Below, piece by piece: positions 39,951 through 46,051 of a stretch of 64,000 bases of DNA. Position 1 is the first letter of the stretch; every line of letters starts with the position of its first letter. The DNA lies in NCBI RefSeq assembly GCF_000144695.1, contig NC_014378.1, positions 594,781 to 658,780 on the forward strand, in the 5' to 3' direction. A program made the translations under genes and the position numbers. The notes under the pieces were generated by a model, which was not told where the DNA came from, made no database searches, and saw only the letters and a program-made list of their open reading frames with translations. Source of the DNA: Acetohalobium arabaticum DSM 5501 (GTDB lineage Bacteria > Bacillota > Halanaerobiia > Halobacteroidales > Acetohalobiaceae).

Positions 39951-40014
39951 AGAAGGAATAATTAGTCTGTAGATCAAAATATATGAAGTAGGTGTAAAGG
40001 TGGGAGGAGATAGA

Positions 40015-40947
40015 ATGAAACTAATAAATTTAATGGAGGATTTTTTACAGTGGATTGAAGTAGAAAAGGGTTATGCTGATTCTACTATTAAAGCCTATGA
40101 ATATGATATTCTTCTCTTTTTAAGATGGTATGATGGCGGTGAAATAATACAGGGAGAGAATAAAGAAGATTTAAAGATTAAATTAAAAAGGATTGAATTG
40201 GAAAATGTAACCTTGGAAGAATTAAGAAAGTTTGTAGTGTATTTAGCCCAAGAATTGGATTATTCTAATACAACACGCTGCCGTAAGATAGCGTCTCTTA
40301 AGTCTTTCTGGAATTATTTATGTAAAGTTAGAAAGTTAACTGATAATATAGCATCTGACCTTTCACTGCCTAAAAAGGAACCGACAACAGAAATTTATTT
40401 AAAACAGAAAGAGATTAATCAACTATTTGTAGCTATTGATGAGATATCAAGGAATATTATTAGAGATAAATCTATTCTAGCTGTATTATTATATACCGGA
40501 ATCCGGGTTAGTGAATGTATTAATCTGAATCTATCTGATATTGATCTGGAAAGTAGGATTCTCCGGATAGTAAAGGGCAAAGGCGGTAAGTCGCGGATGA
40601 TAGGGATTAATAAGGAATTAATGCCGTATATTAAGGACTATCTACAGAAGCGGCAGCAAGTTTTGATAGAGGGAAATCCGTTATTTTTAAGCGAAAGAGG
40701 GAATCGTTTGAATAAAAGGACTCTGCAGTATCACTTCAAACGTTGGGTTGAAGAAGCAGGGCTGCCAGATGAAGTGACAGTTCATAAGTGTAGACATACT
40801 TTCTTAAGCCATCTATGCCAGAATGGAGCCTCGCTGGCAGAAATCAAACAGATCTCTGGCCATAAGAATCTTGCTAGTCTGCAGAGGTACTTACATAATG
40901 ACCAAAAACGTCTTAATAAGATTGTAAATAAGGTCTCCTATAAATAG
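40015..40947 (+). CDS. Tyrosine recombinase (XerC/XerD-like)
   Basis: A 310-aa site-specific recombinase. A SAM-like N-terminal DNA-binding domain (about 1-115: FLQWIEVEKGYADSTIKAYEYD) precedes the catalytic domain with Arg in LLYTGIRVSECINL, Lys in KGKGGKSR, HKCRH (HxxR) and the final GHKNLASLQRYLH with the nucleophile Tyr. ATG at 40015 behind GGGAGGAGAT is chosen over GTG at 40000. All catalytic residues look intact. It stands at the left border of the accessory region between comEC and holA and faces the kinase gene with a gap of five nt. A chromosomal Xer role or an integrase of the region are both possible. Confidence 0.88.
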   Translation: MKLINLMEDFLQWIEVEKGYADSTIKAYEYDILLFLRWYDGGEIIQGENKEDLKIKLKRIELENVTLEELRKFVVYLAQELDYSNTTRCRKIASLKSFWNYLCKVRKLTDNIASDLSLPKKEPTTEIYLKQKEINQLFVAIDEISRNIIRDKSILAVLLYTGIRVSECINLNLSDIDLESRILRIVKGKGGKSRMIGINKELMPYIKDYLQKRQQVLIEGNPLFLSERGNRLNKRTLQYHFKRWVEEAGLPDEVTVHKCRHTFLSHLCQNGASLAEIKQISGHKNLASLQRYLHNDQKRLNKIVNKVSYK

Positions 40948-40952
40948 GAAAC

Positions 40953-41798
40953 CTAGTCTTTAGGAAAGTAACATATAAATTCAGTTCCATAATCCGGTTT
41001 ACTTTCTATTTCCAATCTCCCGCCGGCTTCTTTTACGAGTTCTTTAACAATATGCAGCCCATAACCTCGTTTGGCTCCTTTCGATGAAAAGCCGGCCTCA
41101 AGTATTTCTCCTACCAGTTTATCTTCGATTATCGGACCTGTATTGAAGACATTTAAGATGTATTCCTCACTTCCATTTCTTCCTTTAATTTCAATTCTAC
41201 ATTCTTCATTGAAGTCTTTAGTAGCATCTATTGCATTATCAACTAAATTGGATACTATGCGAAATATTTTATTAAGGGGTAGTTTTATATTTTCAATACC
41301 TTCATCAATTTGATAATTAAATTTAAGGCTTTCATTAGCTGCTTTTTCTTTTTTAGGAACTAGGATTGAGTCTAAAATGGTATTAGTAACTTCGGTTTGC
41401 TCATACTTGAGATTAGCCAGGTCTTTGCTTAAGGATTTAATATACTTCTGGGCTTTTTTATTCTTACCGAGCTGTACCATACCGTAAAGTGTCTGGAGAT
41501 GATTGGCAAAGTCATGCTTCTGGCTTCTTAAGCTTTCGATTAATTTTTCTTTTTCTTCTAATTTAACTTTTTGTAGTTTGAATTTCATTTCATGGTTGAT
41601 CAGTTTAATTGCTTCTTTAATCATAATAATTGATAGAAATGATAAGCAGATACTGATAAATAGAATGATATTTAATAATACGGATGGTAATTTAAAAGAA
41701 GTAATATGGCTTTTAATATTAAATATTAATAATAGGAATGACTGAGTTAATAGAATGATTATTATATATTTTATTCTTAAATTACTTTTCCATTTCAT
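40953..41798 (-). CDS. Spo0B-type sensor histidine kinase, AgrC-like kinase part
   Basis: A 281-aa membrane kinase. Two helices at about 10-30 and 38-60 precede a coiled coil. The Spo0B-like H-box LRSQKHDFANHLQTLYGMVQ (His near 95) follows, then an HATPase domain with NLVDNAIDA (N box) and GYGLHIV (G box). It lacks a large sensor domain. Its ATG overlaps the stop of the upstream membrane-protein gene as ATGA, so the two are translationally coupled. With agrB and agrD divergent about 1.4 kb away, I infer that it is the kinase half of a peptide receptor. No response regulator is encoded in the window. Confidence 0.85.
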   Translation of the reverse strand: MKWKSNLRIKYIIIILLTQSFLLLIFNIKSHITSFKLPSVLLNIILFISICLSFLSIIMIKEAIKLINHEMKFKLQKVKLEEKEKLIESLRSQKHDFANHLQTLYGMVQLGKNKKAQKYIKSLSKDLANLKYEQTEVTNTILDSILVPKKEKAANESLKFNYQIDEGIENIKLPLNKIFRIVSNLVDNAIDATKDFNEECRIEIKGRNGSEEYILNVFNTGPIIEDKLVGEILEAGFSSKGAKRGYGLHIVKELVKEAGGRLEIESKPDYGTEFICYFPKD

Positions 41799-42295
41799 TG
41801 TTTATCACCAGTAGAATTATAGATTTTATGTAGAGATTCAAGATCAAAGAAGCTAAAGTCATAAAAATAAATCATAAATCCAGTAATTAATAATGGAAGT
41901 TTGGTTAAATAGAAGGCAATCCAATTTAAAATCAATTTATTATTGATAAGCTCTTGAATGTTAGTATTAAAATATTGAAAAATTAATGGAAAAACTAATG
42001 TTTCACCCAATAATAGGAGAATGTATCCTAATAGAGAAGCAATTATTGCCGAACTCCAGGTAATTTCAATAAATTTTTTGAATGATAAGGTTAAAATAAA
42101 ATATAAAATTATTATATGAATACCATATAACTTAAGTATATTTCTCAATATAACCAAACTACAAATACAGCTAAGTGAAATCTTAATATGTTTTTTGATT
42201 GGAATTTTAATATTAATTAATCCTAAACCTACATAATTCATTAATAAACTTTCGGGTAGAACAAAAAATAAAATTTGACTGATTGATAGTTCCAT
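41795..42295 (-). CDS. Small polytopic membrane protein, candidate AgrC receptor part
   Basis: A 166-aa protein with about five or six hydrophobic helices and few charges, for example SCICSLVILRNILKLYGIHI and SAIIASLLGYILLLLGETLV. Start is the ATG at 42295 behind AGGAGGTTAAAA; the longer frame to 42328 lacks a site. It overlaps the kinase gene by four nt. Its size plus the kinase (166+281 aa) is close to a normal AgrC of about 430 aa, and AgrC receptors have a six-helix N-terminal domain. So a split receptor is my reading; there is no motif proof. Paralogue of the next gene upstream. Confidence 0.78.
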   Translation of the reverse strand: MELSISQILFFVLPESLLMNYVGLGLINIKIPIKKHIKISLSCICSLVILRNILKLYGIHIIILYFILTLSFKKFIEITWSSAIIASLLGYILLLLGETLVFPLIFQYFNTNIQELINNKLILNWIAFYLTKLPLLITGFMIYFYDFSFFDLESLHKIYNSTGDKQ

Positions 42296-42357
42296 TTTTA
42301 ACCTCCTGTTCAGATAAAAAGACATCATTTTAAGGAGATTTGAGATAAAAGTAATAA

Positions 42358-42897
42358 TTAATTAGCATTAGTAAAATTAAAAATATCATTTAAGTATTCA
42401 GAATTTAAAAGATGGAAATCAAAAATATCATTTAAGTATTCAGAATTTAAAAGATGGAAATCAAAAAAATAAATCATTAAACTCATGATTAATGATGGAA
42501 GTTTAGTTAAATAAAAAATAATTGAAAATAAAATTAAATCATTATTAATAAAAGTTTTAATATTAGTATTAAGATACTGAAAAACTAATGGAAACAGTAC
42601 CAGTTCACTTAATAATAGAATAATAAATCCTAATAGAGAAGCTATTATTGCTAAATTCCAGCTAATTTCAATAAAAATTCTAAATAATAAAGTTAAAGAT
42701 AAGAATAAAAATATTATGTGAAGGCCATATAAATTAAGAATGTCTCTTAATAATATTAAACAGCAAGTATAAATAATTGTAATTTTTATATGCTGTTGAA
42801 GTTTGATTTTAATATTAATTAATCCTAAGCTTACATAAATTAGCAGGAAACTTTCAGGAACAATATGTAATAAGATTTGAATAGTAGATAAGTTCAT
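42358..42897 (-). CDS. Paralogous small polytopic membrane protein with duplicated tail
   Basis: A 179-aa protein clearly related to its neighbour: shared ESFLLIYVSLGLINIKI-like start, LNLYGLHII, AIIASLLGF, LFPLVFQYLNTNI and YLTKLPSL segments. About five or six helices. The C-terminus repeats the 14-residue unit FDFHLLNSEYLNDI twice because of an exact 42-nt tandem duplication. ATG at 42897 follows AAGGAGGTACAA. It is 62 nt upstream of the second membrane gene in the same transcription unit. Possible second or decoy peptide receptor; function unknown. Confidence 0.75.
   Translation of the reverse strand: MNLSTIQILLHIVPESFLLIYVSLGLINIKIKLQQHIKITIIYTCCLILLRDILNLYGLHIIFLFLSLTLLFRIFIEISWNLAIIASLLGFIILLLSELVLFPLVFQYLNTNIKTFINNDLILFSIIFYLTKLPSLIMSLMIYFFDFHLLNSEYLNDIFDFHLLNSEYLNDIFNFTNAN
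42379..42462. repeat. Perfect 42-nt tandem duplication inside a coding region
   Basis: Units 42379-42420 and 42421-42462 are identical and in frame, duplicating 14 residues at the C-terminus of the minus-strand membrane protein. Confidence 0.97.
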
Positions 42898-43176
42898 TTG
42901 TACCTCCTTAGTTAGGGGGGAGAATGTAAAAAATGGTATGAAGCTATGTTACATTACTTAGAAATATTTTTTTATGTTTTTATATGTAAGTAGATTTAAA
43001 TATTGAATCTATTATATTTTTCCTCCCACTTATAAATTATTATATATTTTTATCTGAATTCCTCCTTTTTTTAGAATGAAATACCAAAAATAATAAATTA
43101 GTTTTAAAAATTGACCCTTATTTTCGTGAAAAAATATTTTCATGTAAAGTTTTTTGTTTAAAGAAAGGAGGATAAA
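42898..43176. other. Divergent control region of the agr-like locus
   Basis: About 280 very AT-rich nt between the minus-strand receptor-kinase unit and agrB. It holds the ribosome sites at both ends and a direct repeat before agrB (separate entry). It must contain both promoters; I cannot assign them with confidence. Confidence 0.6.
43119..43147 (+). promoter_or_regulatory. Direct repeat upstream of agrB, possible operator
   Basis: TATTTTCGTGAA (43119-43130) and TATTTTCATGTAA (43135-43147) are near-identical and offset by 16 nt, about 30 nt before the agrB start. A TTGACC hexamer lies just upstream at 43111. Direct repeats are typical of response-regulator sites, but no regulator is known here. 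Confidence 0.4.
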
Positions 43177-43788
43177 ATGAGTGATAAAAAGGGAATTGAA
43201 TTATTAAGTGAAAAATTAGTTCTTGGTTTATTTAAAGATTTATCTATGGAAGAAAAGGAAGTCTTAAGCTATGGAGCAACAATTCTATTATCAACTTTAG
43301 GTACTTATTTATTGTTAATATTTGTTTCTTCACTATTTAATGTTACAGTTTTAGCTTTAACAGCAGTAGCTACTTCTTCACTGTTAAGAATCTTTTCAGG
43401 TGGAGTTCATGCCTCTAGATTTAGAAATTGTGCTCTATCTGGAACTATTGTCTTTACTACATTGGGATTGATTGTGAGTAACTTTGGAAGCCAAATCAAA
43501 AATATAAATATATTAGTGTGTCTTCTTTTAATAACAGGTTCATTGATTATCTATCTTTATGCACCGGCAGAGATTAAAGAAAAGCCGATTACTAGTCAAG
43601 AAAAACGGGCAAGATTTAAGATTTATTCTTTCATTGTTTTAAGTAGTTTATTATTGATCTATTATATTATCAATTTAAGAACAGACTATAATTATTTTGT
43701 GCTGGCAGGATTGTTAGGTATTTCATGGCAGCTATTTACACTAACACCTATAGCTTATAAACTACTTGGTAGAAATGATAATATTTGA
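43177..43788 (+). CDS. agrB: AgrB-type peptide-processing membrane protease
   Basis: A 203-aa integral membrane cysteine endopeptidase that removes the AgrD C-terminus and closes the (thio)lactone ring. The catalytic pair is His78 and Cys85 in FSGGVHASRFRNC, spaced by seven exactly as His77/Cys84 in staphylococcal AgrB, with the conserved Arg71 upstream. About five or six helices. ATG at 43177 behind AAGAAAGGAGGA. agrD follows 55 nt downstream in the same direction, and the putative receptor-kinase genes are divergent. Confidence 0.93.
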   Translation: MSDKKGIELLSEKLVLGLFKDLSMEEKEVLSYGATILLSTLGTYLLLIFVSSLFNVTVLALTAVATSSLLRIFSGGVHASRFRNCALSGTIVFTTLGLIVSNFGSQIKNINILVCLLLITGSLIIYLYAPAEIKEKPITSQEKRARFKIYSFIVLSSLLLIYYIINLRTDYNYFVLAGLLGISWQLFTLTPIAYKLLGRNDNI

Positions 43789-43843
43789 AAGATAAATGAT
43801 TTTTAAATGGAGTTCTAATTATTTATGAAAAGGAGGTGAGAAA

Positions 43844-43963
43844 ATGAAGGAAGCAATTGCTAAGTTATTAAAAAAGGCAACAAAGGCTAATGTAGCATCA
43901 GTAAGTGGTATTGCTTATTACCAACCAGAAGTACCACAGGCTGTAAAGAAAGAAGATAAGTAA
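43844..43963 (+). CDS. agrD: AgrD-like cyclic autoinducer precursor peptide (39 aa)
   Basis: Short gene with a strong AAAGGAGGTGAG site. The product has an amphipathic N-terminal helix (MKEAIAKLLKKATKANVA), a core VSGIAYY and the tail QPEVPQAVKKEDK. Aligning YQPEVP with the DEVEVP that follows the S. aureus AIP-I core predicts cleavage after Tyr25. That gives a five-residue ring Ser21-Gly-Ile-Ala-Tyr25. There is no Cys at all, so closure would have to be a serine lactone instead of a thiolactone. It lies directly behind agrB and before a terminator. The exact mature peptide is inference. Confidence 0.88.
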   Translation: MKEAIAKLLKKATKANVASVSGIAYYQPEVPQAVKKEDK

Positions 43964-43974
43964 ATTACTTATTA

Positions 43975-44016
43975 AATAGCTAGGTAGGATTCTTATTCTA
44001 CCTAGCTATTTTCATT
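43975..44016 (+). terminator. Rho-independent terminator after agrD
   Basis: Thirteen-bp stem AATAGCTAGGTAG / CTACCTAGCTATT, then TTCATTTT. Confidence 0.88.
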
Positions 44017-44030
44017 TTAGGAGGGATTTC

Positions 44031-44462
44031 ATGGGAAAAGAGAATGATTTAGATAAAATAGCTCAGACGGTGAATATCTGGTGTAAATCTTTGATACAGA
44101 AAGATGAAGCAAATTTAAAGTCTATAGTAAATCCTTATAATTTTAGAGATAAAGAGATAGCCTACAAGAACACTAAATTGATTCATCAAGAGGATATCCA
44201 GTATACTCATACTGAATATATTGAACATGTTCGCTTGTTATGGAAGAAACGGAAATATTTGCAGACTAGGACTAGAGATGCTGTTACTTATTTAATGAAA
44301 GAGTTTGCTATTTATAATGCTACTTTGCAAGCTAAGATAAAGAATAAGAATGATAATTCTGTTATTGAATATAATGATATGGATGCATCATTTGAATTAT
44401 TAAAGATTGACAATCAATGGTATCTTTCAGGGCTAACAAATATTATCAGAATCAATAATTAA
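44031..44462 (+). CDS. Uncharacterised 143-aa protein, possibly NTF2-like
   Basis: Not recognised with certainty. No signal peptide or membrane helix. The early helix DLDKIAQTVNIWCKSLIQKDEANLKSIVNP (in parts) and the ending SFELLKIDNQWYLSGLTNI resemble the SnoaL/NTF2-like fold, in which a closing strand reads out a pocket. ATG at 44031 behind AGGAGGGATTTC, which lies just after the agrD terminator, so it may be read through or have its own promoter. It borders palindromic element copy B. Confidence 0.7.
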   Translation: MGKENDLDKIAQTVNIWCKSLIQKDEANLKSIVNPYNFRDKEIAYKNTKLIHQEDIQYTHTEYIEHVRLLWKKRKYLQTRTRDAVTYLMKEFAIYNATLQAKIKNKNDNSVIEYNDMDASFELLKIDNQWYLSGLTNIIRINN

Positions 44463-44891
44463 CAGGCAGTGATAGTGTTGAATTTAAGTTGAGTTTTGAT
44501 AAATTGCAGATGGAATTACAACTATATTGATATATTGTGTCACTTTCCATTTACAGCTAATATGATTTTATTCATGACATTGCAGATTATAGTCAACAAA
44601 TCTCTTACGCTTGCCGTTCGTTCGACATCCTGTCTCACTCACTCTCAAAAAAGAACTTTCCGCCATAGCCAGCATACAAACCAATGGCTGGCTATGGGAG
44701 TAACCTTTAGAGCTAAATATGGTAGTATTGAGCAAATCTAAAGGACTAAGAACAAAAAGAAATTATTCTACAACCTCCATGGCTCCAAGTTCTTTTTAAG
44801 AGTCGCTCCAGAGAAATGTTGACTATGACCCTCCCCCAATTTGTTAGACACCCAGTTAAGCGATATAATAGAAGTAACGGAGGTGCTACAA

Positions 44892-45125
44892 TTGGGAGAA
44901 AAACGAAGAACATATACAGAAGAATTCAAAAAAGATGCTGTTGAACTATCAAATAGATCAGATAAAACAGTTAAAAATGTATCTGAAAATCTTGACATAC
45001 CTTATGGTACTTTAATTAGATGGCGTAGAGAGTACAAAGATAAAGGTGATCTTGCTTTTCCAGGCCATGGCAAACAGAAACTAACTCCTGAACAAAAAGA
45101 AATTCAAAGACTAAAAAAGAATTAA
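44892..45125 (+). pseudogene. IS3-family OrfA (helix-turn-helix), frame broken
   Basis: TTG start at 44892 behind CGGAGGTGCTACAA. It encodes the OrfA HTH ([34 protein letters not shown]) but stops at KKN instead of continuing [17 protein letters not shown]. Adding one A to the run at 45113-45118 restores the leucine-zipper region, and another A to the run at 45154-45158 restores the usual slippery end where OrfA shifts -1 into OrfB. Confidence 0.85.
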
Positions 45126-45158
45126 AAGATGCTAAAACAGAGCGTGATATTTTAAAAA

Positions 45159-46051
45159 GGCCGTAAGCATCTTCTCGAACGAAGCGAAGTAATTTACGGT
45201 TTTATCAGGGACCACAGTGATCAATTTACTGTGGTGAAGATGTGTCAGGTTTTAGAGGTGTCCCGCTCTGGATATTATAAATGGTTAAATAGAAAACCAT
45301 CTCAAAGAGAAAAATAAATAAAAAATTAAAACTTAAAATAGCTGAAATTTACTGGCAGCATAATGGAACATATGGTAGCCCTAGAATTCATAGAGTGCTG
45401 CGAAAAGAGGGTTATACAGTGAACATTAAAAGAGTTGCTAGGTTAATGCGGATAATGGGTTTAAAAGCAATTCAAAAAAGAAAGTTTAAAAGAACTACCA
45501 ATTCAAATCATGACTTACCTTTAAAAGAAAATCTCCTAAAAAGGGATTTTGATATAGATAAACCAGATAAAGTCTGGGTCTCTGATATTACTTATATATC
45601 AACTAAAAAGGGTTGGCTTTACCTGGCAGTTGTAATTGATCTCTATTCAAGAAAAGTAGTTGGCTATTCTATGAGTAAAAGAATAAATACAGATTTAATA
45701 ATGTCAGCAACTAAGATGGCTATAAGTCGCCGCAACCCTGAAGCAGGACTTATATTCCACTCTGATAGAGGTAGCCAGTATGCAAGCCACAAAGTACAGA
45801 ATTTATTTAAACAGCATAGTATTAGATCCTCAATGAGTCGTAAAGGTGACTGTTGGGATAATGCAGTTGCTGAAAGTTTCTTTGGTACTTTGAAGATTGA
45901 GTTAGTTTATCATAAAAAGTATTTAACCAGAAATCAAGCTAGGTTAGATATATTTGAATATATTGCTAGTTACTATAATAAAGTTAGGCTACATTCATAT
46001 TTAGATTACATGAGTCCGAAAGACTACGAGAAAGAGAGAAAAATGGCTTAA
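45159..46051 (+). pseudogene. IS3-family OrfB transposase (rve/DDE), one frameshift
   Basis: Reads [20 protein letters not shown] and [18 protein letters not shown] up to about 45314. It then needs one extra A (run 45310-45314) to continue [28 protein letters not shown]. The catalytic triad is intact: Asp in VSDITYIST, Asp in [12 protein letters not shown] and Glu in [12 protein letters not shown]. It would supply transposase only if the frameshift were repaired or bypassed. Confidence 0.85.

Follow-up and report, generated by a model that had tools for sequence, protein, structure and literature searches.

The window is the whole 64,000-nucleotide stretch that was analysed, and it comes from the genome of a salt-loving anaerobe, a single contig of 2,469,596 bases. 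An open reading frame check of the window recovered all five genes of an agr locus, as the sequence-only reading had claimed, with agrB and agrD on the plus strand, two membrane paralogues and a kinase on the minus strand, and every coordinate holding. We found that agrB (43177..43788, +) encodes a 203-aa peptide-processing membrane protease that matches PF04647 at 130.9 bits (cut-off 23) and possesses the catalytic pair His78 and Cys85, also noted in that reading. Downstream, agrD (43844..43963, +) encodes a 39-aa precursor with a predicted ring of SGIAY followed by YQPEVP and matches TIGR04223 at 35 bits (cut-off 19), such that the protease, catalytic-pair and precursor criteria of an agr system are all met. 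An intrinsic-terminator-like hairpin lies just 3' of agrD (43974..44011, +); the hairpin search found 1 vs 0.9 expected by shuffling, and its 17-bp stem is long. The divergent intergenic region (42898..43176) presumably contains the promoters for the two operons, with promoter-like matches at chance level (19 vs 21.6 expected), and a search of this region for direct or regulatory repeats found none.

On the minus strand, the 281-aa kinase (40953..41798, -) has two transmembrane (TM) helices followed by DHp and ATPase domains. It meets the criterion for a Spo0B-type histidine kinase, with matches to HATPase_c (PF02518, 67.6 bits) and SPOB_a (PF14689, 60 bits), and its His95, N box and G boxes are intact. 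Upstream of it lie membrane protein 1 (mem1; 41795..42295, -), which has 166 aa and about 5 TM helices and is the proposed AIP-sensing subunit, and membrane protein 2 (mem2; 42358..42897, -), a 179-aa paralogue with 57% identity to mem1 that is proposed as a second sensor subunit. Neither mem1 nor mem2 matched any family when searched against Pfam and NCBIfam. The mechanical open reading frame of mem1 is 177 aa long (41795-42328), and we preferred the 166-aa start at an internal ATG (42295) because GGAGG lies just 5' of it, while the start at 42328 has no ribosome-binding site. The stop codon of mem1 and the start codon of the kinase share the sequence ATGA, and each of the two genes has its own ribosome-binding site; the 166-aa length and the overlap had both been read correctly.

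Recurrence of the mem family and its fusion to the kinase

Members of the mem family are present in 150 of 398 sampled genomes of the phylum and AgrB in 166, with both in 140, so that 140 of the 150 mem-bearing genomes have AgrB (odds ratio 120, Fisher p 1e-66). Because the count ignores the relatedness of the genomes, this p value should be read as no more than a rough indication. Among related genomes, mem1 was found in 23 of 101, in single or tandem copies, and a scan of named genomes found relatives in only three, Orenia metallireducens, Candidatus Frackibacter sp. WG13 and Fuchsiella alkaliacetigena. Neighbourhoods from the same order contain mem, kinase, agrB and agrD in varying arrangements with 1 to at least 4 mem copies, and since this gene set recurs across the order, the locus is not due to chance. 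One of 13 genomes checked (G010) carries mem and kinase pairs without adjacent agrB or agrD.

We examined 130 mem family members from about 111 loci. Only 2 of the 130 have neither agrB nor an output protein in their neighbourhood, and one of these lies at the edge of a contig; the wide occurrence of mem without such neighbours, which would have refuted the proposal of a split AgrC, was therefore not observed. A Rosetta-stone search for fused orthologues, suggested by the sequence-only reading as a check, returned 15 members in 14 loci that are fused N-terminally to the same 2-TM kinase (441-476 aa). The remaining 115 are separate genes across many genera, which makes the split form the common one here. 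Thus AgrC as one polypeptide is found in 15 relatives but not in the window, where it would correspond to two genes. In a tree of 130 mem domains, fused rows are nested among separate ones and 6 changes between the two states are needed, at least 2 of which are forced by well-supported branches; the direction of change was not rooted. The two copies in the window are each other's nearest relatives in this tree, and mem2 falls in a starred set with L034.

All four fusions tested in an NCBIfam scan align collinearly with the staphylococcal AgrC model (NF046015, 414 positions) across both sensor and kinase, with residues 23-420 aligned to positions 12-395 (L052), 68-431 to 44-396, 54-443 to 20-395 and 80-432 to 45-394. 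These fusions score 54-72 bits, and the kinase of the window alone aligns to positions 138-396 at 44 bits. Since 44-72 bits is far below the equivalog cut-off of 500 bits, we take these matches as homology and collinearity, not as membership of the staphylococcal equivalog. In a structural model of the L052 fusion (pLDDT 89.2), the helices of mem1 recur and are followed by two further helices, 161-194 and the start of 205-272, that lead into the kinase, and the 2-TM arrangement of the kinase was read from this fused homologue (5 TM, 2 TM, DHp/CA). The kinase part of the model matches the AgrC structures 6e52 and 4bxi, among many other kinases. Together, the fusions and the collinearity support the earlier claim of an AgrC split into receptor and kinase subunits, while the receptor role itself is still inferred.

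An AlphaFold2 model of mem1 (mean pLDDT 93.1) shows five long membrane-length helices with short ones between them. A fold search with this model against the PDB gave no meaningful match, the best Z of 5.0 being within the noise stated for helical models, and no solved AgrC sensor domain was found for comparison. Against a viral structure library, the best two matches were uncharacterised 158-165-aa proteins from phage records (TM about 0.53, E 0.05-0.09), and a phage and plasmid search with a fusion as query matched only the catalytic part. The mem gene is directly 5' of the kinase gene in 53 pairs, 26 of which overlap, and in five loci (L037, L041, L042, L045 and L046) the order is reversed, with the kinase first and both genes on the same strand. 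Inter-locus distances of mem correlate with those of the kinase at 0.85, which does not single out the kinase as the partner of mem because the correlation with AgrB is also 0.85.

Predicted autoinducer rings and a second kind of output

We aligned 72 AgrD precursors on their YQPxxP motif, counting only precursors that carry it. The ring position, five residues before the motif, was Ser in 39, Cys in 30 and Thr in 3, and never another residue. This pattern fits a lactone or thiolactone, and the peptide of the window is predicted to be a Ser lactone of SGIAY, with its processing inferred. The serine of the autoinducer was thus correctly read at first, but its treatment as an oddity did not hold, as Ser is the commoner state here. 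Ser lactones occur in some staphylococci, and so a Ser lactone is not new by itself. Cys rings accompany GGDEF proteins or long kinases in 21 of 23 cases and Ser or Thr rings accompany short kinases in 35 of 39, a link that is only descriptive because just 2 independent pairs support it.

Elsewhere in the same genome (2032551-2035560; L003:6552-9561) we observed a second agr locus, in which mem, agrB and an agrD of the Cys type, with CFMGF as the proposed thiolactone, are followed by a gene for a 553-aa 6-TM GGDEF+HD-GYP protein. It shares the mem family, agrB and agrD with the locus in the window but differs in that its output is this 6-TM protein and not a kinase. Its gene order recurs across the phylum, and other loci carry PAS kinases or kinase-receiver hybrids. 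Many of these outputs, GGDEF+HD-GYP proteins included, share a 6-TM N-terminal module that is marginally similar to Pfam 6TM_PilS (28 bits in the best case vs a cut-off of 27). The module has 93 matches in the phylum, at least 57 of which have agrB or mem within 5 kb, as do at least 51 of the best 60. When 20 other module stretches were inspected, 14 also held agrB, an AgrD-like open reading frame or mem, and the only GGDEF+HD stretch among the exceptions begins at the end of a contig. In the mem tree, the mem proteins of the 6-TM-output loci cluster together as a single starred group (99).

The two-protein AgrC reading and its alternatives

These findings make it likely that the window holds an agr-type locus for quorum sensing by a peptide, with AgrC produced as two separate proteins, although no binding or phosphotransfer data support this. 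In the mechanism that we propose, AgrB would cut and cyclise AgrD to give a Ser-lactone peptide, probably cyclo(SGIAY), a structure and processing that are inferred. The 166-aa and 179-aa 5-TM proteins would serve as alternative sensors: each would bind the peptide within the membrane and contact the 281-aa kinase through the two TM helices of the latter, thereby switching autophosphorylation of the kinase; both the binding and the helix contact are inferred. The phosphate would then pass to an unlinked regulator, most likely Spo0A.

The LytTR regulator AgrA, a further criterion of an agr system, is missing here. As the sequence-only reading had stated, no LytTR gene is present in the window, and the genome also has no free AgrA partner, its only LytTR protein being encoded about 0.48 Mb away beside a 560-aa LytS-like kinase. 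Since the genome has no AgrA, the phosphate probably goes to an unlinked regulator. An AgrA-type partner is present in some relatives: among split loci elsewhere in the phylum, 16 of 72 short-kinase cases have a LytTR regulator next to them, and related split pairs sit with LytTR regulators and agrBD (e.g. L062, L103 and L109). We propose an unlinked target because the only LytTR protein of the genome pairs with the LytS-like kinase, LytTR is entirely absent from 2 of 13 relatives that carry the locus and all 13 have Spo0A. The genome has 13 receiver domains, and the only full-length regulators without a neighbouring kinase seen in it are Spo0A and one of OmpR type at about 928.9-929.6 kb. Spo0A is the leading guess for the kinase target, inferred by elimination only and without phosphotransfer data.

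The locus is similar to staphylococcal agrBDCA in its AgrB and AgrD families, its Spo0B/GHKL-type histidine kinase and the collinear layout of sensor, 2 TM helices and DHp/ATPase domains seen against AgrC. It differs in that sensor and kinase are separate genes, the sensor is duplicated, the gene order is divergent, the ring residue is Ser and not Cys, and AgrA is absent from the locus and, as a free protein, from the genome. AgrC-TM5-6C, an engineered S. aureus truncation of 297 aa that comprises the last two TM helices and the cytoplasmic kinase, has constitutive kinase activity (PMC3841183). The natural 281-aa kinase has essentially the same cut point, whereas AgrC-TM5-6C is engineered and was supplied with no separate sensor. 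The gene set also resembles agr3 of the C. difficile phage phiCDHM1, which consists of agrB, agrD and a kinase without an identified receptor domain and has no response regulator (PMC3901668); its authors report no separate sensor gene there, and our comparison involved no sequences. If the reading is correct, a well-studied receptor exists naturally as a two-part device, split where experimenters cut it by hand. This would explain many agrB/agrD loci that seemingly have no receptor, and the sensor alone would be small enough for peptide-binding and structural work.

We considered three alternatives. It is possible that the paralogues are not equivalent, with one sensing the self peptide and the other acting as a decoy or a sensor of a neighbour's peptide in a multi-specificity array. 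In favour of this, mem arrays recur (2 copies here, 3 in L046, at least 4 in L045 and 3 in L127) and array members have one-to-one counterparts within each of the genome pairs L040/L043 and L045/L046. Against it, mem1 and mem2 are most closely related to each other, only one agrD is present at the locus and there are no specificity data.

It is less likely that mem assists AgrB in maturation or export of the peptide, or shields the producer, while the short kinase senses through its own two helices. A point against the two-protein reading is that mem also accompanies agrB and agrD in loci whose partner is something other than a 2-TM kinase, so that it could have a role at a step before sensing; in such loci (L003, L126 and L140) mem adjoins or overlaps agrB, and the activity of AgrC-TM5-6C reportedly still rises with AIP (PMC3841183). 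On the other hand, mem is fused to the kinase N-terminus, at the position of the AgrC sensor, in the 15 fusion proteins, mem and kinase pairs without a nearby agrB exist (9 short-kinase cases), and mem seldom stands without an output (5 cases, most of them at contig edges). A decayed or misassembled AgrC, with one gene recently broken in two, would account for products that sum to the size of one AgrC and for the 4-base overlap, but the many separate mem genes and the two ribosome-binding sites speak against it, and we rejected it on the arrays of 2-5 mem genes that share one kinase and on the reversed order seen in 5 loci, which one broken gene cannot give.

Beyond the two-protein reading, a peptide-to-c-di-GMP circuit is plausible, as the second agr locus found in this genome belongs to the GGDEF type and the linkage is recurrent; gene linkage supports it well, and the c-di-GMP output is inferred. 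Because mem is also a partner of GGDEF+HD-GYP proteins, it is not tied to kinases. We lean, by a modest margin, towards a bolder reading in which mem is a portable stand-alone AIP receptor family that plugs into split AgrC kinases, PAS or hybrid kinases and 6-TM GGDEF+HD-GYP proteins, so that some agr circuits would set c-di-GMP directly and this genome would hold both the kinase and the c-di-GMP versions. If so, peptide signals should exist whose effect on c-di-GMP needs no response regulator. Neither a split AgrC nor an agr-linked GGDEF gene was found in the literature that we searched, with most subscription papers outside its scope.

Neighbouring DNA and minor features

A near-perfect 42-bp tandem duplication in mem2 (42374-42457) adds 14 residues (FDFHLLNSEYLNDI) to its C-terminal tail. 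Two loci elsewhere (L045:6664-8768 and L046:7288-8857) have at least 3 mem copies and one kinase, and their copies match one to one as if each keeps its own role. In the set of 13 genomes checked, a transposase interrupts the kinase gene of G005. Across the loci, the kinase gene is interrupted in three genomes: by a DDE transposase gene identified by Pfam in L038:5017-7369, by a 564-aa opposite-strand open reading frame in L119:4870-7679 and, judged by eye, by transposase-like open reading frames near or at its 5' part in L144:5214-7329.

After agrD, a 143-aa open reading frame without a family match (44031-44462, +) also flanks the agr locus of two relatives (L034:8328-8759 and L036:9579-10007), and may be a target or merely a conserved neighbour. 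Just downstream of the locus lies a transposase pair (HTH_Tnp_1 and rve) of an IS3-like element (44841-46051, +). At the other end, a convergent gene for a recombinase of the phage-integrase family (XerC-like; 40000-40947, +) ends 5 bases from the kinase gene, and a XerC-like recombinase is also a neighbour of the locus in two relatives.
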